A DNA stretch of 64,000 nt. Source: Microbacterium paraoxydans (GTDB lineage Bacteria; Actinomycetota; Actinomycetes; Actinomycetales; Microbacteriaceae). Shown one piece after another: positions 39,062 to 47,996 of the stretch. Location of the stretch: contig NZ_LT629770.1 of the NCBI RefSeq assembly GCF_900105335.1, positions 1,364,001-1,428,000 on the forward strand, written 5' to 3'. The notes beneath the pieces were generated by a model. It saw nothing but the letters and a program-made list of their open reading frames with translations. It was not told where the DNA came from and ran no database searches. Each line of letters begins with the position of its first letter. Position 1 is the first letter of the stretch. Position numbers and translations under genes: made by a program.

Positions 39062-40197
39062 GGTGTTCCTTCCAGAGCAGGGGTGCCGCCGAGGGCGGCG
39101 GTGAGGTTGAGGTCGGCGAACCCGAGGCCGCAGGTCATGCCGATGCCGGTGGTCGCAGCGAGCACGAGGGCGCCGTCGTCTCCGCGGTCGACGAGGAACT
39201 CGCCGGGGGCTTTCGCGTACACGCCCTGCCACCGCTCGATCACCCGCGGCGCCGCCCCCTCGAACAGGGCCTCGGCCTCGCTCAGGAACGCGGTGAAGGC
39301 GGCCTCCGGCTGGAACGGAGAGGGGGCGGCATCGGTGACGTGCGAGTCGCCGAGGATGAGCGTGCCGTCGGGCAGCTGCGTGTACATCTGATTGAGATCG
39401 AGGGCCGCGAGATCGGGGCGCTCGGCATGCAGGCGCTCACGGAGGACCCGGGCCTCTGGCCCTTCGGCGAACCTCCCGTATCGGATGAGGGACCAGCCGG
39501 TCAGCAGGGGCGCGGTCAGCGGACGAGGGAAGGAGACGGCCGCCCGCATCATGTCCAGCGCACAGCGCACCACCCCGTGACGCTCCGCGACCTCGGGCAG
39601 GAGCTGGTCGATGTCGTGGTTGACGGCTACGACCACCGCCCCGGTGTCGATCGCCCCGCGCGTGGTCTCCACCCGGCCGGCGCCGAGGGCCGTGACCGCG
39701 GTGCGGAAGCGGAACTCGACGCGCCGTGCGGTCAGGTAGCGCACGATCGTGGTCGCCGCGGTGCGCGGGTTCGTCTGCAGGTCGGCCTCGATGAGGGCAC
39801 CGCCGACGAGCCCGTCGCGGCGCAGCGGGGCACGACGCAGGAGCTCGTCAGCCTCCAGCATCCGGATGCCCCCGTCCTGTGCCGCCGCGGAGAGCACGGC
39901 GAGCTCGTCCTCGTGGCGGGCGGCCACGAGCGTGCCCGACTCGCGGAGCCAGAACCCCGCGTCCCTGGCGAGCTGCAGCCAGAGTTCACGGGACGCATCC
40001 GCGTACCGCTGCGCCTCTCCGCCCTGCGCGCCGATGCAGAGGTGGCCGAAGTTGCGGATCGTGGCGCCGGTCGGGGCGGCGCCGCGCTCGACGACGACGA
40101 CCCGGAGCCCGCGGCGCACGGCGGCGAAGGCGGCGCCGAGGCCGACGATGCCGGACCCCACCACGACGACGTCCGGATTCTGCTTCGCCCCGGTCAT
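39058..40197 (-). CDS. FAD-dependent oxidoreductase of the phosphonate cluster (TIGR03364 type)
   Basis: The 379-residue DAO-type flavoprotein has the dinucleotide site VVVGSGIVGLGAAFAAVRRG, an ATIRNFGHLCIG stretch, and the C-terminal GIGMTCGLGFADL. This subgroup occurs with phosphonate transporters. Related enzymes are reported to oxidise aminoethylphosphonate or N-alkyl forms to phosphonoacetaldehyde (my recollection). The gene is coupled at both ends by ATGA overlaps, so it works with the phosphonatase-like hydrolase. No PhnW transaminase gene is present, which supports an oxidase route. Confidence 0.88.
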   Translation of the reverse strand: MTGAKQNPDVVVVGSGIVGLGAAFAAVRRGLRVVVVERGAAPTGATIRNFGHLCIGAQGGEAQRYADASRELWLQLARDAGFWLRESGTLVAARHEDELAVLSAAAQDGGIRMLEADELLRRAPLRRDGLVGGALIEADLQTNPRTAATTIVRYLTARRVEFRFRTAVTALGAGRVETTRGAIDTGAVVVAVNHDIDQLLPEVAERHGVVRCALDMMRAAVSFPRPLTAPLLTGWSLIRYGRFAEGPEARVLRERLHAERPDLAALDLNQMYTQLPDGTLILGDSHVTDAAPSPFQPEAAFTAFLSEAEALFEGAAPRVIERWQGVYAKAPGEFLVDRGDDGALVLAATTGIGMTCGLGFADLNLTAALGGTPALEGTP

Positions 40198-41969
40198 CGG
40201 AACACCTTCCTCATCCACATCGCGAGACCCTCGACGGCGAGCACGGTCACGAGGATCATCAGGACGATCGCGGTCACGGTCTCGTAGCGCGAACCCTGGC
40301 TGGCGTTCAGCAGGTAGTAGCCGACACCGCCGCCGCCGACGATGCCGAGGATCGTGGCCGCGCGGATGTTGGTGTCGAGCATGTAGAAGCTGTGCCCGAT
40401 GAGCGCTCGGGTGCCCTGGGTCAGCGTGGCCGACGTGTACGTCTGCATCCGTGTGGCGCCCACCGCCCTCAGCGCGCGCTCGGGCCCGCGGTCGACCTCC
40501 TCGAAGGAGTCGGCGATGAGCTTGCCGAGCAGTCCGATCCCGCCGATCGCGAGCGCGATGACACCGGCCTGCGCGCCGAGACCCGTGATGACGACGAGGA
40601 CGATGGCGAGGATCAGCTCGGGGATGCCGCGGATGCCGACGAGCAGCAGACGGGCGGTGCCGCGCCCTGCCGCGTGCGGAGCGACGTTGCGCGCGGCGAA
40701 CGAGCCGAGCAGCAGCGAGGGCAGGAGGGTGAGGACGGTGGCGGCGAGTGCGATGGCGACGGTCTCCCGCATGGCCTCCAGCATCGCGACCGTGTCGTAG
40801 CTGCCGAACGACGGCGGCCAGAACCGGGCGGCGACGTCGGGCAGCTTCGCCCAGAAGGTGAAGAGGTCCGACCAGGTGATCTGGCTCACGACGACGCTGC
40901 CGACCACGACGAGGATCGTGACGATCCCCGCCGCGGTGTGGCGCATGCGCTGCGCGGTCCACGGACGACGCACCGCGGCCTCCGGGCTCACCGCCCACGC
41001 CGGGCGGCCCTCGGCGGGCGCGTGCGACCGCCGACGCAGGCGCGGGTGCACGATCCGGTCCATCCACGACCGCGTGTGCTTCTGCTCGCCGAGCATCGCA
41101 CCGCGCACGGTGCTCGAGACGATCTCCATCACGATGCAGAGCACGAAGATGACGAGCGCGATCCCGAGACCCTTGCCGTAGTTCAGCGCCTTGAACGCGT
41201 ACGACATCTCGAGCCCGAGGCCGGCGACGCCCACGTAGCCGAGTACGACGCTCCCGCGCAGGTTGATGTCGTTGCGGTGCAGCACGGTCGCCACCCAGCT
41301 CGGCAGCACCTGCGGGAGGATGCCGGCGGTGAACTCCTGGAGCTTCGAGCCACCGGCGGCACGGATCGCGAGACGGGGCCCTTCGTCGATCTGCTCGATG
41401 GCGTCCGCGAACATCTTGGAGATCATGCCGATCGAGTGGATGCCGATCGCGAGGATGCCGGGCAGCGTGCCGAGCGAGAACATGAGCACGAACGCCATGG
41501 CCAGCACGACGTCCGGCAGCGCGCGGGTGAGGACGCCGAGGAATCGGGCGGCCGCGCGCCAGCCTGCGCCCGGCGTGGTGTTGGCGGCGGCGAGATAGGC
41601 GATGGGCACGGAGAGCACGGCCGCCAACAGCGTGCCGACGAGCACGAGGCCGACGGTCAGGGCGATGAGCCAGGCGAGGTCGGCCGGCGCGGGGAAGGAG
41701 AGTCCGCCGACCCTGGCGAGGAAGTTCTCGGCGTTGCCCCAGCTCTGCACCATCGCGGGGATCGAGATACCCACGTCGCGCACCGCCAGGATGCCGAGCA
41801 CGACGAGGACGACGAGCGTGAGGCCGGCAGCGATGCGCTCGGCCGAGAGCGGCCGCTTCGGCGCCCGCTCCGCGACGCTTGCCCGTCCCTGGGTCGCTGA
41901 GCCTGTCGAAGCACCCTGGGGCGCTGAGCCCGTCGAAGCGCCCCGTGTCGAGGTCCCCACCGCTGTCAT
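40194..41969 (-). CDS. phnE: Phosphonate ABC transporter permease, two PhnE domains fused
   Basis: The 591-residue protein is two PhnE-type permeases in one chain. Each has about six helices and an EAA loop (AIEQIDEGPRLAIRAAGGSKLQEF and SFEEVDRGPERALRAVGATRMQTY), joined by a cytoplasmic linker with basic patches around residues 295-330. It would replace the usual two subunits. The N terminus (residues 8-30) is made of two copies of the dispersed repeat read as GASTGSAPQ and GASTGSATQ. ATGA overlaps with phnC before it and the FAD enzyme after it mark one operon. Confidence 0.93.
   Translation of the reverse strand: MTAVGTSTRGASTGSAPQGASTGSATQGRASVAERAPKRPLSAERIAAGLTLVVLVVLGILAVRDVGISIPAMVQSWGNAENFLARVGGLSFPAPADLAWLIALTVGLVLVGTLLAAVLSVPIAYLAAANTTPGAGWRAAARFLGVLTRALPDVVLAMAFVLMFSLGTLPGILAIGIHSIGMISKMFADAIEQIDEGPRLAIRAAGGSKLQEFTAGILPQVLPSWVATVLHRNDINLRGSVVLGYVGVAGLGLEMSYAFKALNYGKGLGIALVIFVLCIVMEIVSSTVRGAMLGEQKHTRSWMDRIVHPRLRRRSHAPAEGRPAWAVSPEAAVRRPWTAQRMRHTAAGIVTILVVVGSVVVSQITWSDLFTFWAKLPDVAARFWPPSFGSYDTVAMLEAMRETVAIALAATVLTLLPSLLLGSFAARNVAPHAAGRGTARLLLVGIRGIPELILAIVLVVITGLGAQAGVIALAIGGIGLLGKLIADSFEEVDRGPERALRAVGATRMQTYTSATLTQGTRALIGHSFYMLDTNIRAATILGIVGGGGVGYYLLNASQGSRYETVTAIVLMILVTVLAVEGLAMWMRKVFR
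41889..41938 (-). repeat. Two in-frame copies of the TTCGACAGGCTCAG-type repeat
   Basis: On the coding strand, CTTCGACAGGCTCAGCGACC and a second copy with one change (GGGCTCAGCGCCC) lie 27 bases apart in the 5' end of phnE. Both are read as STGSA(T/P)Q. The region before the first membrane helix tolerates such low-complexity additions. Confidence 0.8.
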
Positions 41970-42793
41970 GACGCCGCCACCGTGGTCACGGCGTCGACGA
42001 GTTCCACCTGCACGGCGCGCATCTCGGCCGTGGTCGTCGCGACGCGGCCGTAGATCTCCATCACCTCGGCCTTGGTGAGTCCGGCCGTCGGGGTGTCCAG
42101 GACGACTTCGCCGTGCCGGAGCCCGACGATCCGGTCGGCCCAGCTGATCGCGAGGTCGACCTGGTGCAGGCTGCACACGACGGTGAGGCCTTCGTCGGCG
42201 GCGATCTCGCGGACGAGGGCCATCACCTGCTCGCTCGACTCCGGGTCGAGAGAGGCGACGGGCTCGTCGGCCAGGAGGATCGCCGGCTTCTGCATGAGCG
42301 CCCTGGCGATGGCCACCCGCTGCTGCTGCCCGCCGGACAGCGTGTCACTGCGCTGGTAGGCACGGTCGAGGAGGCCGACGCGGTCGAGGTGCTCGAGGGC
42401 GGTCAGCTTGGCGGCGCGGGGGTAGCTCCACAGCCCGAGCCGCGGGCCGCGCATCCGGGAGAGCGACCCGGTCAGCACGTTCTCCAGGACGGTCAGCGAA
42501 GGCACGAGCTCGAACTGCTGGAAGATGAAGCCCACGCTGCTGCGAAGCTGTCGCAGCGCCCGGCCCTTCATCGCGGGCACGGACGCGCCGAGCACCTCGA
42601 CGGACCCGGAGCTGGGCAGCTCCAGGCCGTCGAGATGCCGCAGCAGCGTGGACTTGCCGGAGCCGGAGAGCCCGAGCAGCACGACGATCTCTCCCCGCGC
42701 CACCTCGAGCGTGACGTCCTTGAGGGCGGTGGTGCTGCCGAAGGTCTTCGTGACGCCGGCGAGGCGGATGAGGGTGTCGGATGCCGCGGTCAT
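41966..42793 (-). CDS. phnC: Phosphonate ABC transporter ATP-binding protein
   Basis: The 275-residue ATPase has Walker A GLSGSGKST, the Q-loop FQQFELVPSL, signature LSGGQQQRVAIARAL, Walker B ILLADEPVASLDP and the H-loop CSLHQ. The sequence SLTVLENVLTGSLSRM and the whole context (PhnE fusion, PhnD) mark it as PhnC type. The ATG at 42793 has a CAGGAG site. It is followed by phnE with an ATGA overlap. Confidence 0.94.
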   Translation of the reverse strand: MTAASDTLIRLAGVTKTFGSTTALKDVTLEVARGEIVVLLGLSGSGKSTLLRHLDGLELPSSGSVEVLGASVPAMKGRALRQLRSSVGFIFQQFELVPSLTVLENVLTGSLSRMRGPRLGLWSYPRAAKLTALEHLDRVGLLDRAYQRSDTLSGGQQQRVAIARALMQKPAILLADEPVASLDPESSEQVMALVREIAADEGLTVVCSLHQVDLAISWADRIVGLRHGEVVLDTPTAGLTKAEVMEIYGRVATTTAEMRAVQVELVDAVTTVAAS

Positions 42794-42821
42794 GGCTTCT
42801 CCTGTCGTCAGGCGCGGGGCG

Positions 42822-43745
42822 TCAGCCCTGGCACTGCTCGGCTTCGGTCTCGGCGCAGATGTCGCGGATGAGGTCGTAGTAGGCGTCGTCCACCGGCTTG
42901 GTGGCGTAGAACACGCTGCGGAACGCGTCCGAGTCCGCACTGTCGATGCCCGCCGCGATGATGTCGTCGATGGTGACCTCGCCGAGGGCGTCGACGAGCT
43001 GCTTCGCCACGTCGTCCGGCAGGGACGAGGAGTAGACGAGCGGAGCGCCCGGGACCATCGTCTCGGCGATGACCTTCACCTTGTCGGACTTCTCGACCTC
43101 GGAGTCCTCGGCGAAGCCGGCCTCGCACTCGACGCCCTCGCCGACCTTCTGCACGCTGACATCGTGCTTGCCCGCGAACACGGGGGTGATGTCGGTCTTC
43201 GGGTCCACGCCCGCCTCGATGAGGTTGTACGACGGGAAGAGGTAGCCGGAGGTGGACGAGGGGTCCACGAAGCAGACCTTCTTGCCCGCGAAGTCCTCGA
43301 GGCTGGAGATGTCGCTGTCCGCCGGGACGATCGCCTGCGAGTAGTAGCCGGGCTCCTGGCCCTCCTCGGTGACGATGGACGAGATCGGGGTGAGCTTCGC
43401 GCCGTTGTTGGTCGCGGTGACGTAGGTGAACCCCGAGAACGAGGCGACGTCGACCTTGCCGGCGACGGCGGCCTCGATGAGCGCCGCGTAGTCGGTGGAC
43501 TCGTGGTATTCGACGGTCTTGCCGCTGACCTCGGCGATGTAGTCCATGAGCGGCTGGTAGTTCGTCTCGGTGTCCACCGAGTCGGGGACGACGCCGAAGA
43601 CGAGGGTGTTCTCGTCGACGGCGAAACCGCCGGCGGACTGTGCGTCGCCGGGGGCGTCGGTGGCATCGGCCGATCCGGAGCAGGCGGCGAGGCCGAACGC
43701 GAGGATCGCAGCGCCGGCGAGGGCGGGGAGAGCGCGGAGCTTCAT
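42822..43745 (-). CDS. phnD: Phosphonate ABC transporter substrate-binding lipoprotein
   Basis: The 307-residue periplasmic-type binding protein has a lipoprotein signal (lipobox LAAC, C22) and the PhnD pattern: LVFGVVPDSVDTETNYQPLMDYIAEVSGKTVEYHESTDYAALIEA, a ligand loop with AKVTPIS, and VCFVDPSSTSGYLFP, which binds the phosphonate group. First gene of the operon. A candidate GntR site lies at 43804-43817 upstream. Ligand is probably aminoethylphosphonate or a relative, from the downstream enzymes. Confidence 0.94.
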   Translation of the reverse strand: MKLRALPALAGAAILAFGLAACSGSADATDAPGDAQSAGGFAVDENTLVFGVVPDSVDTETNYQPLMDYIAEVSGKTVEYHESTDYAALIEAAVAGKVDVASFSGFTYVTATNNGAKLTPISSIVTEEGQEPGYYSQAIVPADSDISSLEDFAGKKVCFVDPSSTSGYLFPSYNLIEAGVDPKTDITPVFAGKHDVSVQKVGEGVECEAGFAEDSEVEKSDKVKVIAETMVPGAPLVYSSSLPDDVAKQLVDALGEVTIDDIIAAGIDSADSDAFRSVFYATKPVDDAYYDLIRDICAETEAEQCQG

Positions 43746-43803
43746 GAGGACCTTTCAGGGTGGGAGGAGTGATCCAGGGACGACTCTCCCAGCCGTCGGG
43801 CCG

Positions 43804-43817
43804 ACATGTATACCTAT
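43804..43817. promoter_or_regulatory. Candidate GntR operator upstream of phnD
   Basis: ACATGTATACCTAT contains the palindromic core GTATAC and shares ATGTA and ACCTAT with the site over the gntR promoter (43903-43914). It lies 59 bases upstream of the phnD ATG, where a TAGGTA-type -10 could be on the minus strand. Confidence 0.5.
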
Positions 43818-43902
43818 CTCGGAAGAGTTCAGGCGGCGTTCACCCGCGATTGTCCTGGATGAACGGCCCCACAACACACAGGCCCGGACACGACAGACGA
43901 AG

Positions 43903-43914
43903 TAATGTACCTAT
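43903..43914. promoter_or_regulatory. Leaderless promoter and candidate operator of the GntR gene
   Basis: TAATGT (43903-43908) is six bases before the GTG at 43915. The overlapping ATGTACCTAT resembles the site upstream of phnD, and GTGTAC recurs just inside the gene. Autoregulation is inferred. Confidence 0.5.
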
Positions 43915-44658
43915 GTGGCCGAACCTGTGTACACCCAGATCGCCGACGACCTCCGCGCGCGGATCGTCGACGGCACGCTCCGGCCCGGGGACGATGTCCC
44001 CACGGAGGCGGAGCTCGCGGAGCGGTGGCACACGTCGCGAGGTCCGATCCGCAACGCCCTGGCGGCGCTCCGCGCCGAGGGGCTGATCGAGACCGGCCGG
44101 GGGCGCCCCGCCCGCGTGGTGGCGCGCAAGGCGAATCAGGCGGTCGACGTCTCGGTCCCGTTCACCCGCTGGGCGCGGGATCTCGGCGTCACGCCGGGCG
44201 CGCAGACGCAGGAGCTGAGTCTGCGACGCGCGGGCGATCTCGGCCCGGCACTGGGCGTCGGACCCGACGACACGATCGTGAGCGTGGTACGACTGCGGCT
44301 GCTGGACGGACGGCCGACCATGCTGGAGCGACTGGCCTACACGGAGGACGTCGGCCGTCGGCTGTTCGACGTCGACCTCGACGCGGTCTCGATCACCGAG
44401 CACCTCGCATCGGTCGGGCATCCGATCGTCACCCTGCAGCACGTGATCGATGCCGTGGCCGCCGACGATCAGGACTCGGCGCTCCTGCGCGTGCCCCGCG
44501 GGACGCCCATCCTGCGGTTGACCCGGACGTCCAGGGACGCGGAGGGGCGCATCTTCGAGGCGTCGGAGGACCGCTACCTCAGCGAGGTGGTGCGCTTCAC
44601 GGTGGCGGCGTCCGGGATATCGGCGGACGGGCACTTCATGAGAGCGGTGGGCGGCTGA
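43915..44658 (+). CDS. GntR-family regulator with UTRA domain
   Basis: The 247-residue protein has an N-terminal winged helix (PVYTQIADDLRARIVDGTLRPGDDVPTEAELAERWHTSRGPIRNALAALRAEGLIETGRGRPARV) and a C-terminal UTRA ligand domain (about 90-240). HutC/PhnF-type proteins repress transport and catabolism genes until a small ligand binds. It is divergent from the phosphonate operon, so it probably senses a phosphonate or its breakdown product. Confidence 0.93.
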   Translation: MAEPVYTQIADDLRARIVDGTLRPGDDVPTEAELAERWHTSRGPIRNALAALRAEGLIETGRGRPARVVARKANQAVDVSVPFTRWARDLGVTPGAQTQELSLRRAGDLGPALGVGPDDTIVSVVRLRLLDGRPTMLERLAYTEDVGRRLFDVDLDAVSITEHLASVGHPIVTLQHVIDAVAADDQDSALLRVPRGTPILRLTRTSRDAEGRIFEASEDRYLSEVVRFTVAASGISADGHFMRAVGG

Positions 44659-44675
44659 GGCCCGGAGACAGATTC

Positions 44676-44728
44676 GCGACCGCGGGCGCGGGAGTCTAAG
44701 AAGCCAGAAAGATCGCGCCCGCGATCGC
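44676..44728 (+). terminator. Hairpin downstream of the GntR gene
   Basis: GCGACCGCGGGCGCG (44676-44690) pairs with CGCGCCCGCGATCGC (44714-44728) with one mismatch. It lies 18 bases after the gntR stop in the convergent gap to the kinase gene, so it is a likely terminator. Confidence 0.55.
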
Positions 44729-44809
44729 AGCGCTGGGGACGCTTTATCTGGGGAGCCTTCAGGATATGTCGGCGCCGCGAGGCCGCTGAAGTGCCGAATG
44801 TCGAGACAC

Positions 44810-44829
44810 TCGTAGACTTTCGTCTACGA
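44810..44829. promoter_or_regulatory. Perfect 8-base palindrome after the kinase gene
   Basis: TCGTAGAC (44810-44817) and GTCTACGA (44822-44829) are separated by TTTC. It is downstream of the kinase stop (44874, minus strand) and could be its terminator. The half-site GTAGAC followed by TTT also occurs upstream of the response regulator near 46193-46202 (minus strand TGTAGACCTTT), so a shared protein site is possible. Confidence 0.45.
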
Positions 44830-44873
44830 CCTCGGGGCCGGAATCATGGGCTTCATCTCAGGATACGCGGGGC

Positions 44874-46016
44874 TCACACCACCGGCAACACGGCGGACAC
44901 GAGCCAGTGCCCGTCCACTTCACCGGCGCTGAACTCGCCGCTGGCACCCATCACGCGTTCGGCCATGCGCCCGAGCCCGGTCCGGCTGGAGGAGAGCTCA
45001 CGACGCGGCGTCGTGGGCAGCGGGCTGCGCAGCGACAGATGGGCTTTGTCGTCGTCAACGGCGAGACGGATCTCGACGGTGCCGGGGCCTGCGTACTTCA
45101 GAACATTCGTGGCCGACTCGCGCACGATGCGCGCGAGCACGATCTCGACGGCACGAGGGATCCGTTCGTCGCCGGGGTTTCCGTCGAGGACGACCTCGTG
45201 CCCTGCCGCTTCGAACTCGGCCTGCGCCTCCTCGACCGCGGCGACGAGGTCGCCCGTCGGCATGCCCGCTGCACGGGGGCCGTCGTCGGCGAGGTCGATC
45301 ACGAAACGGAGGTCGGTCATGGCTTTGCGGGCGGCGACACGGATCGCCTCCCGGGAGCCATCGCTGGTGTCGGGGTCTTCGAGCATCTGCACGTGCAGCG
45401 AGACCACCGTGAGGTGGTGCGCGATGCTGTCGTGCAGCTCGCCGGCGATCCATCGTCGCTCGGCGAGAACGGCTTCCCGTTCCTGCTCAGCCGCAGCCTC
45501 CAGCTGACGCTCGAGTCTGCTGCCGCGGGCGAACGCCAGTCTGAGGGCGAACCCTACGGCGCCCGCCACCGCGGCGAAGACGAGATAGATGGCGACATTC
45601 ACGCCTGCGTCCGCGTCACCGATGGCGACGAGAGCTGCTGCGACGAGAAATGCGCCGGCGTAGGAGAGGATCAGCGAGGTCCATCCGAGCCTCATGACGA
45701 GACCTGCCGCGACTGCGGCGGCCGTCAAGACCTGGTACTCGCTGCCTACGAGAAAGGATGTCGCGAACACCACGCCGAGGGCGCATGTCGCAAGGAGGGG
45801 ATTCCAGAGATAGAGGGCGAACACAGCTGTGGACGAGACGCTCACCACCACGACTGCCGGGTTGGCACCGGGGACGGTGATGACGCCGATGAGGTCCACA
45901 ACGATGGTGATGGAGACGATCACCAGAACAACGATGCGCTCGACGGCGCTCAGCTTCTCGCCTCGAACCAGTCGGAGCGAATCCGCAGAACCGCGAATCG
46001 AATGGTCGAAGGCCAT
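44874..46016 (-). CDS. Sensor histidine kinase (HisKA_3 type)
   Basis: The 380-residue kinase has about five or six hydrophobic helices (28-160) with almost no extracytoplasmic loop, a short coil, HisKA_3 with H195 in AGELHDSIAHHLTVV, and a HATPase-type domain (N-box RIVRESATNVLKYA, then TGLGRMAERV). Kinases of this intramembrane-sensing layout detect membrane changes or hydrophobic peptides. The ATG follows TAGGAGATAG. A 15-codon gene with an ideal ribosome site ends 29 bases upstream, and the response regulator is divergent, so kinase, peptide and regulator form one locus. Confidence 0.93.
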   Translation of the reverse strand: MAFDHSIRGSADSLRLVRGEKLSAVERIVVLVIVSITIVVDLIGVITVPGANPAVVVVSVSSTAVFALYLWNPLLATCALGVVFATSFLVGSEYQVLTAAAVAAGLVMRLGWTSLILSYAGAFLVAAALVAIGDADAGVNVAIYLVFAAVAGAVGFALRLAFARGSRLERQLEAAAEQEREAVLAERRWIAGELHDSIAHHLTVVSLHVQMLEDPDTSDGSREAIRVAARKAMTDLRFVIDLADDGPRAAGMPTGDLVAAVEEAQAEFEAAGHEVVLDGNPGDERIPRAVEIVLARIVRESATNVLKYAGPGTVEIRLAVDDDKAHLSLRSPLPTTPRRELSSSRTGLGRMAERVMGASGEFSAGEVDGHWLVSAVLPVV

Positions 46017-46045
46017 GGTTCACTATCTCCTATTCGCCAGGTACT

Positions 46046-46093
46046 CTAGCGGACGAGACCAAAGAACTTGCTAACCTGCTGCCAGAAAGTCAT
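46046..46093 (-). CDS. 15-residue peptide MTFWQQVSKFFGLVR, candidate signal or membrane-active peptide
   Basis: A 16-codon frame with the ideal ribosome site GGAGGTGA (46099-46106) five bases before its ATG encodes a peptide with Phe, Trp, Val and Leu at positions 3, 4, 7, 10, 11, 13 and 14. On a helix these form one hydrophobic face; Lys9 and Arg15 give +2 charge and there are no acidic residues. It is directly upstream of the kinase on the same strand. The shape recalls phenol-soluble-modulin or formylated signal peptides. It could instead be a leader that couples translation to the kinase. Codon use (GTT, AGC, TTT, GGT) is less GC-rich than its neighbours. Confidence 0.6.
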   Translation of the reverse strand: MTFWQQVSKFFGLVR

Positions 46094-46179
46094 TACATTC
46101 ACCTCCGTCCTAGTGCCGTTTGTCGATGTCTGTATTCATCTTCTCGGCGGCGCGCGGAGCGCACATCTGGCCTTCGTCC

Positions 46180-46201
46180 AGACCTCGATAGCCAAAGGTC
46201 T
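46180..46201. promoter_or_regulatory. Inverted repeat in the divergent peptide-kinase / regulator promoter region
   Basis: AGACCT (46180-46185) and AGGTCT (46196-46201) are perfect arms with a 10-base spacer, 30 bases upstream of the -10 (TAGGCT) of the response regulator. A dimeric LuxR-type regulator commonly binds such sites; autoregulation and control of the divergent peptide-kinase transcript are inferred. Confidence 0.5.
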
Positions 46202-46242
46202 ACATCCTCAGAGCGCCCGCTTCACGCCGTTAGGCTTCCTCC

Positions 46243-46896
46243 ATGCAGGAAATCCGCGTCGTGATCGTCGATGACGATCCTCTGGTCCGCTCCGCGCTGT
46301 CGCACTTCGTGTCGCGCGCGCCCGAGATCACGGTCGTGGCGCAGGCAGAGGACGGCCGGGAGGCCCTCACGACGGTCGAGCGCGAGAAGCCGGACGTCGT
46401 GATGATGGACGTCCAGATGCCGGAGATGAACGGCATCGAGGCGACCGCGGCGATCGCCGAGCGGTGGCCCGACGTGCGCATCCTCGCCGTGACCACGCTC
46501 GATGGCAGCGACACCGTGCTGCCCATGCTGAGCGCCGGCGCCTCCGGCTACCTGCTTAAGGACTCCAGTGCGGAGGAGATCGTCACGGGTGTGCGCGAGG
46601 TGTTCGCGGGAGCGAGCTCGCTGTCGCCCCGCATCGCGTCGATGCTTATCCGCCACGTGCGCGACTCCACCCCCACCGCGGCCGCGGAGACCCTCGAACC
46701 GCTCACCGAGCGCGAGGAGGAGGTGCTGCAGTGCCTCGCGAAGGGCATGTCCAATGCCGAGATCGCCAAGGCGCTCATCGTCTCGGAGGGGACCGTGAAG
46801 GCCCACCTCGGTCGCATGATGTCGAAGTGGCACCTGCGCGACCGCGTGCAGATCCTCGTCACGGCCGCCCACGCCGGACTCGTCACCTTCCGCTGA
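46243..46896 (+). CDS. LuxR-type (NarL/FixJ) response regulator
   Basis: The 217-residue regulator has a receiver (VIVDDDPLVRSAL, D56 in VVMMDVQMPEMNG, K near LLKDSS) and a LuxR helix-turn-helix (LTEREEEVLQCLAKGMSNAEIAKALIVSEGTVKAHLGRMMSKW). The ATG follows TAGGCT by six bases (leaderless). Divergent from the peptide and kinase genes with 149 bases between it and the peptide start, so it is the cognate partner. Targets are unknown beyond likely autoregulation. Confidence 0.94.
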   Translation: MQEIRVVIVDDDPLVRSALSHFVSRAPEITVVAQAEDGREALTTVEREKPDVVMMDVQMPEMNGIEATAAIAERWPDVRILAVTTLDGSDTVLPMLSAGASGYLLKDSSAEEIVTGVREVFAGASSLSPRIASMLIRHVRDSTPTAAAETLEPLTEREEEVLQCLAKGMSNAEIAKALIVSEGTVKAHLGRMMSKWHLRDRVQILVTAAHAGLVTFR

Positions 46897-46905
46897 GCCG
46901 GGGAC

Positions 46906-47769
46906 TCAGAGCGCGAGCAGCACGATCCCGACGAGGACGACCAGCGAGGCGCCGATCCGCCATCCCGGCCGGGACTCCCGCAGGACGAAGGCACCGAACA
47001 GGCTCACGAGCACGACGCTGACCTCGCGGAGCGGCGCCACGAGCGCCACCGGAGCGATCTGGATGGCGGTCAGCACGAGGATGTAGGACAGCGGCGACAG
47101 GATGCCGAAGGCCAGGATGCGGCGCCATTGCGTGCGCCCCAGCGCCAGGACCGCACCCCATCGTCCGCGCACCGCCACGGAGTAGAACGGCACCTGCAGC
47201 AGCGTCGTCCCCACCATGAACGCCACCGGTGACAACTCCCACTCCCGCACCGCGTGGGCGTCCCAGATCGTGTAGACCGCGATCGCCACGCCGGTGAGGG
47301 CCCCGAACAACAGCCCGGGGTCGACGCGGCGCCCGCTCCCCGCCGGACGGCGGTCGACGAACCCGATCGCCACCACGCCGACGATCACCGCCGCGACGCC
47401 GATGAGCGCCAGGGCCGAGGGGCGTTCGCCGAGCAGGAGCACGGCGACGATCACGGAGAGGAACGGCCCGGTGCCCCGCGCCGTCGCGTAGACGGTCGAC
47501 AGGCTGCCCTCCCGGTAGCCGCGCTGCAGCACGGCCATGTAGGCGACGTGCAGGACCGCGGAGACGGAGACCCCGAGCGCGAACGAGCCGAGGTCGGCCG
47601 CACCGAGTCCGCCCGTGAACGGCACGGCGCCGATCCAGACGGCGGTGCTGGCGACCGCACCCCACCACAGGAACGGCGAGCCGGCGCGGCTGATGCCGTG
47701 CGCGATGACGTTCCACGACGCGTGGGCGATCGCAGCGGCGAGGACGAGGACGAGAGCGACAGCGGACAC
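46906..47769 (-). CDS. EamA-family transporter under ykkC riboswitch control, candidate guanidine exporter
   Basis: The 287-residue protein has ten helices in two EamA repeats, the second with the family pattern PLREVSVVLVSLFGAFVLRE. The GTG at 47769 is seven bases after AAGGG. A leader matching the ykkC guanidine-I riboswitch precedes it on the same strand, so expression should rise with guanidine, and export of guanidine or a related cation is the simplest role. Riboswitch-linked guanidine exporters are usually SMR proteins, so an EamA member is less usual. Substrate is inferred. Confidence 0.85.
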   Translation of the reverse strand: MSAVALVLVLAAAIAHASWNVIAHGISRAGSPFLWWGAVASTAVWIGAVPFTGGLGAADLGSFALGVSVSAVLHVAYMAVLQRGYREGSLSTVYATARGTGPFLSVIVAVLLLGERPSALALIGVAAVIVGVVAIGFVDRRPAGSGRRVDPGLLFGALTGVAIAVYTIWDAHAVREWELSPVAFMVGTTLLQVPFYSVAVRGRWGAVLALGRTQWRRILAFGILSPLSYILVLTAIQIAPVALVAPLREVSVVLVSLFGAFVLRESRPGWRIGASLVVLVGIVLLAL

Positions 47770-47806
47770 GGCAGACCCTTCCCTCCGCCGCGGGCGCGAC
47801 GAATCG

Positions 47807-47913
47807 GGTCCTCCGGGCTTTTGTCCTGTCAGATGACGGCCCTCCTGCGGAGGAGGACCGTGGCGCCGCTCGGACCAGACGGGTGCAGACCCCGGAACCC
47901 TAGGCGCTATCGC
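47807..47913 (-). promoter_or_regulatory. ykkC-class (guanidine-I type) riboswitch
   Basis: Reading the minus strand, the conserved blocks appear in order: CCTAGGGTTCCGGGG (47890-47904), TCTGGTCCGAG (47869-47879), an ACGG-containing helix arm (near 47837-47860) and the hallmark GGACAAAAGCCCGG (47813-47826). The spacing and order match my memory of the ykkC/guanidine-I consensus. It ends about 38 bases before the GTG of the EamA gene. Other ykkC subtypes (ppGpp, PRPP) cannot be fully excluded by eye, but the transporter context favours guanidine. Confidence 0.85.
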
Positions 47914-47996
47914 CACCACCCTATCCCCGACCGGGAAGGGTGCGGTGACCGGGCGCGACTACGCTCGAAGCACACCCCGCGCAGGAAGGTCATGCC

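Follow-up and report, generated by a model that had tools for sequence, protein, structure and literature searches.

A conserved short-peptide, two-component and small-RNA module in Microbacterium and scattered actinobacteria, agr-like by arrangement

The locus described here lies in a 64,000-nucleotide stretch of DNA, analysed as a whole and called the window below, from a 3.55-Mb genome whose closest named kinase relatives are Microbacterium. A short peptide frame with its own ideal ribosome site stands 29 nt before the ATG of a histidine kinase, and a LuxR-type response regulator is encoded divergently, a layout given in a preliminary description of this DNA and re-found by us in the sequence (Table 1). 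The same description had called the locus minimal, wrongly so, as a small RNA gene downstream of the kinase is also part of it.

Table 1. Features of the locus, in positions of the window
Feature	Position	Strand	Basis
Small RNA gene (approximate ends): CUCCCCAG, hairpin AGCG-UCCCCAG-CGCU, long terminator-like hairpin	44670..44758	-	conservation, fold
Possible -10 TATCCT of RNA gene, 46 nt from dyad	44761..44766	-	inference
Putative operator, perfect dyad TAGACGAAAGTCTA, upstream of RNA gene	44813..44826	-	genome pattern search
Histidine kinase, six predicted membrane helices, HisKA_3, DesK-like core	44874..46016	-	Pfam, AlphaFold model, sequence and fold matches
15-codon peptide gene MTFWQQVSKFFGLVR	46046..46093	-	intact in 46/46 full-length orthologs; pN/pS 0.35, 27 pairs
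Ribosome site GGAGGTGA of peptide	46099..46106	-	sequence
Possible -10 GAAGAT of peptide-kinase operon, 45 nt from dyad	46138..46143	-	alignment conservation, spacing (tentative)
Putative operator, dyad TAGACCTTTGGCTA, between regulator and peptide	46189..46202	-	one mismatch
Possible -10 TAGGCT of regulator, 6 nt before ATG (leaderless type)	46231..46236	+	alignment conservation (tentative)
Response regulator, receiver and GerE/LuxR domain	46243..46896	+	Pfam

The AlphaFold model of the kinase, of moderate confidence (mean pLDDT 70.5, pTM 0.40), places helices at residues 24-47, 53-68, 73-90, 93-110, 113-133 and from 141 onward, joined by linkers of 2-7 residues, which supports the earlier claim that the protein has almost no extracytoplasmic loop. 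Its DHp/catalytic core is DesK-like, DesK being the best match both by sequence (E 9.3e-11) and by fold; DesK senses membrane state or membrane fluidity. When the genes of the window were compared with flanks of up to 4 kb at other loci, regulator and kinase alone were common to the surroundings, joined in close relatives by phosphonate-type genes. In the window, the flanks of the module (40194-44658 and 46906-47919) hold a phosphonate-type ABC transporter, GntR genes and an EamA gene, the last matching a phosphonate-associated family below the cut-off. Such neighbours (GntR, PhnDCE-like) recur in part of the Microbacterium loci only.

Kinase matches at E up to 1e-30 were obtained in 73 of 198 genomes of the genus, among them 46 full-length orthologs at 60-100% identity (the window's own genome included), and we read all 47 loci of this kind (the 46 and one with a split kinase, G034) together with three of the four next relatives, at 39-43% kinase identity. 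In 46/46 full-length orthologs the frame is intact, has 13-15 codons and stops 27-43 nt short of the kinase; it stands behind a ribosome-site word of our script's list in 41 of them and behind GGGGGTGA, GGCGGTGA or GGTGGTGA forms, seen in the alignment, in the remaining five; in the three distant relatives the frame runs to 19-20 codons. The preliminary description had proposed to give up the peptide gene if relatives kept the ribosome site ahead of random or broken codons, and all 46 orthologs speak against that outcome. In 27 comparisons of a 15-codon frame with its nearest neighbour, after removal of pairs with identical DNA or with kinases less than 2% apart, pN/pS was 0.35 and the nonsynonymous fraction 0.56 vs 0.79 expected (binomial p 6e-14). 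The peptide is under purifying selection, and its W4 and G12 are invariant among 38 distinct 15-mers.

A scan of named genomes returned 79 loci, 68 of them with a kinase identity of at least 38% and many of these from species that overlap the 198-genome set. The peptide was found in 68/68, 67 by script and one (L115, Tessaracoccus caeni) by reading, with the regulator divergent beside the kinase in every case. In the 11 named loci at 26-36% kinase identity, where kinase starts are poorly placed, the peptide was not found; seven of these have the regulator downstream. Beyond Microbacterium, the peptide locus occurs in Leucobacter, Tessaracoccus, Actinomyces and other genera, and a family sample searched at a strict limit (E up to 1e-70) gave matches in 3/398 genomes, all of the same genus; this patchy distribution across genera points to transfer or loss. 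A search for plasmid carriage gave no match at E 1e-30, and none of 48 viral pattern matches was confirmed. A loose peptide pattern, run over both strands of 0.75 Mb of locus DNA, matched once outside the arrangement. Orphan peptides were also considered and rejected: start-pattern matches occur in 89/198 genomes, many by chance, and the three fetched from outside kinase loci were a 100-residue membrane-type frame, a 20-residue frame without the peptide's pattern and a long frame, none of which has a kinase or regulator nearby. A more distant kinase group (L117, L118, L120-L122, L049-L051) carries another peptide type, ending LGLCS.

The close spacing of frame and kinase (27-43 nt) would also suit a leader peptide, whose translation would control kinase expression by attenuation or coupling, as would a strong hairpin between peptide and kinase in three aligned relatives at 38-42% identity (L049-L051). 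This was the main alternative of the preliminary description, and we consider it most improbable: residues are conserved with synonymous change, the peptide occurs in tandem copies at two loci described below, and the 46 aligned main-family sequences have no such hairpin, except for a small one in L045. The alternative terminator that an attenuator would place between the peptide and the next gene was likewise absent from the main group, the only comparable hairpin being that of the three relatives.

To relate the peptide to the two halves of the kinase, we used 64 of the 68 loci (near-identical kinases and L113 dropped) and, within these, a main-family subset of 55 loci with a sensor domain above 40% identity to the reference row. 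In this subset, peptide distance followed sensor distance given catalytic distance (partial r 0.51, 0/2000 permutations), and the reverse comparison, peptide against catalytic distance given the sensor, gave a partial r of -0.07 (p 0.89). Over all 64 rows, with the 38-45% kinase group included, the sensor was no longer favoured (0.39 vs 0.37). Within the main family the peptide appears to track the membrane domain of the kinase and not the catalytic domain, in a kind of test that ancestry and DNA linkage may inflate. Most loci have one peptide copy. An uncultured Leucobacter (L104) has the same peptide five times in tandem, at 100-bp intervals. In T. caeni four or more copies can be read, one of them starting with TTG, and a further one is cut by masked bases. 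Such amplification suggests that the product itself matters. G034 is the only genome where the kinase has decayed, and its peptide frame is broken as well. Intact frames, selection, sensor co-variation, tandem copies and joint decay together support the assignment of a true peptide gene to the kinase and regulator.

As to the product, Met is followed in 43/47 distinct peptides by T, S, P or G, which favours its removal. Net charge is +1 or +2 in 45/47. The peptide of the window has no Cys, which is found in some relatives' peptides only; the lack of acidic residues reported for it does not extend to the relatives with FWEQ, and its description as amphipathic holds in part, the helical-moment z averaging 0.70 over the 47 distinct peptides, exceeding 1 in 30% and reaching -1.8 in the five-copy Leucobacter peptide. 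Charge, tandem copies and a DesK-type kinase core would fit a membrane-active product of the PSM or antimicrobial type, an output more than a signal, whose dose the kinase would set by sensing membrane disturbance; set against this are the mostly weak helical moment, the single copy in most loci and the sensor-domain co-variation of the main family, and we regard such a role as unlikely. The co-variation with the membrane domain would equally suit a peptide that stays inside the cell, lodged at the inner membrane face, and adjusts kinase activity in the manner of small-protein regulators of sensor kinases, as would the position of a frame without signal sequence right before the kinase and the lack of an exporter among the adjoining genes, reported in the preliminary description. 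Tandem amplification is unusual for a stoichiometric modulator, and we find this reading rather unlikely.

A putative operator is common to the peptide operon and the RNA gene, the latter having escaped the preliminary description. A GTAGAC-TTT half-site had been reported at both ends of the locus; both places are confirmed, but what stands there is a full dyad, TAGAC-N4-GTCTA. Its pattern, TAGACNNNNGTCTA, occurs once in perfect form in the genome, 47 nt beyond the kinase stop, and at 12 places with at most one mismatch, two of which lie in the locus; ten single-mismatch dyads lie elsewhere. Among the 68 named loci the best dyad match is 108-111 nt before the peptide ATG in 60 (0-3 mismatches), and the distance from dyad to first CCCCAG is 71-73 nt in 45 of the 53 loci with that motif (0-4 mismatches). 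The dyad is present, with similar spacing, at the promoters of both the peptide operon and the RNA gene. A wider dyad regulon was sought by searching TRGACNWWNGNCYA in 16 genomes and set aside: among the matches listed, 12 palindromic-site stretches from 9 genomes were read, and no shared gene context was recognised in them, except for three apparently within the same coding sequence. One relative (L150) has two perfect TAGAC-N4-GTCTA dyads, at 1922 and 2037 (about 115 bp apart), beside a gene for a secreted-looking protein and an ABC-type gene.

Just 3' of the kinase, a small RNA of about 90 nt with UCCCCAG loops is conserved, its terminator-like hairpin being long and GC-rich. The predicted fold has a z of -3.3, with 0/200 shuffles equally stable. 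Relatives' RNAs carry one to three UCCCCAG motifs on AGCG/CGCT, GGCG/CGCC or AGCA/TGCT stems, and both sides change in 5/16 pairs of the consensus (covariation term -0.97), which gives the fold modest support. A covariance model built from 37 sequences of such loci found strong matches (E up to 2e-9) in 47/198 genomes, the same 47 that have the kinase, at 79-212 nt from it; the other 151 gave no strong match, five of them having weak ones only (E 8e-4 to 5e-3). As the model derives from such loci and the genes are linked, co-occurrence of RNA and kinase was expected, and the information added is that no strong free copy was found. Rfam gave no relevant match at positions 44000-47000 of the window up to E 5, and its 6C model (RF01066) matched neither there (E 5) nor in six relatives (E 1) or three loci of the core RNA described below (E 3). 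The kinase is followed in L100, L103, L106, L113 and L115 by another kind of C-rich stretch, which has a terminator-like hairpin, and a clear C-rich stretch was not seen after the kinase in L104, L109, L111, L112, L114 and five of the six Microbacterium loci at 38-45% identity. A mere terminator common to convergent genes, with no RNA gene, would explain the long GC-rich hairpin and the convergent genes that lie on both sides in the window. This is very unlikely, given that the hairpin is preceded at constant spacing by the dyad, a -10-like hexamer and between one and three UCCCCAG motifs, and that the stretch is retained where a GntR gene was not found in the flank (L077, L087, L101).

A second RNA with UCCCCAG hairpins was observed on the minus strand of L232 (about 2386-2505) and, in the window's own genome, near C1:1518100. 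It has a promoter-like sequence, TTTGGGATACCAT, and a terminator-like hairpin. We read it in the window's own genome and four others, and three of these five genomes lack the peptide-kinase locus; Rfam gave no match at three loci (E 3), and the minimum-energy fold of the own-genome copy forms one of the two drawn hairpins, the other being absent. On the side of possible targets, tandem CTGGGGA pairs, counted irrespective of relatedness and with the RNA genes themselves adding pairs, average 7.9 in the 47 kinase-positive genomes vs 2.6 in the 151 others (reversed control 0.8 in both), and at least five occur in 29 of those 151. The leader of a cytidylyltransferase-like gene (PF01467) has at least three TGGGGA in 14/14 kinase-positive vs 7/26 kinase-negative genomes, in a non-random sample of 40 of the 65 gene-bearing genomes where the positives are close relatives and one counted motif mostly overlaps the start codon; with these seven genomes, G-rich leaders were rejected as specific to the locus. 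In duplex energy this leader alone stood out (5/500 background stretches equally good), five other candidate leaders being unremarkable at ranks 52-161 of 500. The leader (L238, minus strand near 1157; orthologs L243-L268) holds several G-rich motifs, a number of which are predicted to lie in hairpin loops, and its conservation extends to part of the genus. Three G-rich motifs also lie upstream, in L239 and L241, of a gene with a CoA_binding_3 match just below cut-off, presumably resembling a polysaccharide priming transferase, and single G-rich sites precede genes with secreted-looking products (judged by eye; no Pfam match). Such genes are candidate targets only, and probably of the core RNA too.

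By comparison across these genomes the conserved peptide, two-component and RNA module is real: the peptide is a conserved coding gene that tracks the sensor domain, and dyads, RNA gene and kinase occur together. For its working we infer a model where the membrane domain of a DesK-like intramembrane kinase would most likely monitor a short cationic peptide with a tryptophan, whose gene stands directly ahead of the kinase gene, apparently in one operon with it. The peptide would act either as an autoinducer released from the cell or as a regulator that stays in the membrane. The kinase would phosphorylate the divergent LuxR-type regulator, which in turn would bind the TAGAC-N4-GTCTA dyads and activate its own gene, the operon of peptide and kinase, and the small RNA. 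The latter would be the main output, its UCCCCAG loops pairing with CUGGGGA-type sequences at ribosome sites and changing the translation of mRNAs with G-rich leaders, so as to join a regulon already served by the core RNA with the same loops. Whether all these parts form one self-contained signalling module is, in our estimation, evenly balanced. Against it count that no exporter or processing gene is known at the locus, that the preference for the sensor is lost once the 38-45% kinase group is included (0.39 vs 0.37), that compensatory support for the RNA fold is modest (5/16 pairs) and that G-rich leaders occur without the locus (7/26 kinase-negative genomes). Furthermore, Clostridioides difficile is reported to produce a peptide under the control of a two-component system for which it does not serve as ligand (PMC10602386), an example by which a peptide so controlled need not be the ligand.

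We put forward only tentatively, and with more doubt than conviction, that the module represents a new actinobacterial class, in which an unprocessed peptide of 13-15 residues would be sensed in the membrane by a DesK-like kinase and a dedicated C-rich RNA, sharing the seed of the core RNA, would switch an envelope and surface regulon that already exists; the agr-RNAIII logic would then have arisen independently here, in members of several actinobacterial families. No description of this locus was found among the matches listed in the open-access literature, most subscription journals being outside its scope. Examples of peptide signalling through membrane kinases come mostly from Firmicutes. 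In Microbacterium and scattered Actinobacteria, the coupling of a conserved peptide gene with a kinase and an RNA would provide a compact, testable circuit for that group. Genes of 13-15 codons are recoverable by comparison, and the locus directs attention to envelope genes as an unmapped regulon of the C-rich/G-rich RNA kind.

Among known systems, phenol-soluble modulins are short leaderless cationic peptides, sometimes in tandem, and the peptide described here shares these traits; the locus peptides differ in being mostly of 13-15 residues, with a weak helical moment (mean z 0.70, 47 peptides) and one copy in most loci. The DesK-DesR system of Bacillus, where the partner regulator is LuxR-type, offers the best match to the kinase core by sequence and fold, whereas here a peptide gene precedes the kinase, an effector RNA follows it and the regulator is divergent. 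With agr and its RNAIII in Staphylococcus aureus the locus shares the union of peptide gene, membrane kinase, regulator and, putatively, effector RNA. The agr types have an AgrC/HPK10 kinase, a LytTR regulator and an AgrD precursor with Cys and a charged tail; in contrast, the kinase here is HisKA_3 and the regulator GerE (Pfam), the frames are of 13-15 residues, with no Cys in the peptide of the window and no AgrD-like precursor, and no AgrB-like gene was seen beside the locus when the window's genes were compared with flanks of up to 4 kb. The effector RNA of agr, which has C-rich loops and is under the regulator, may have a counterpart in the C-rich-loop RNA and its dyad, control of the RNA by the regulator being putative.

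C-rich hairpin loops are themselves a recurrent device: RNAIII uses them on ribosome sites and G-rich mRNA loops and also encodes a PSM peptide (PMC2837412), and those of actinobacterial 6C (PMC8628891) and of Xanthomonas sX13 (PMC3771888) act on G-rich mRNA sites. The locus RNA has the same kind of loops, but is without an Rfam match such as 6C, and an operator-like dyad links it to a two-component locus with a peptide. In RgaS-RgaR/SpoZ/Agr1 of C. difficile, a two-component system drives a peptide locus and a regulatory RNA, with a peptide that is not the ligand (PMC10602386); those are orphan genes, whereas here all lie in one locus. Overall, the module falls outside agr itself, its parts being non-agr, and is best read as agr-like by arrangement, bringing together a peptide, a two-component system and an effector RNA.
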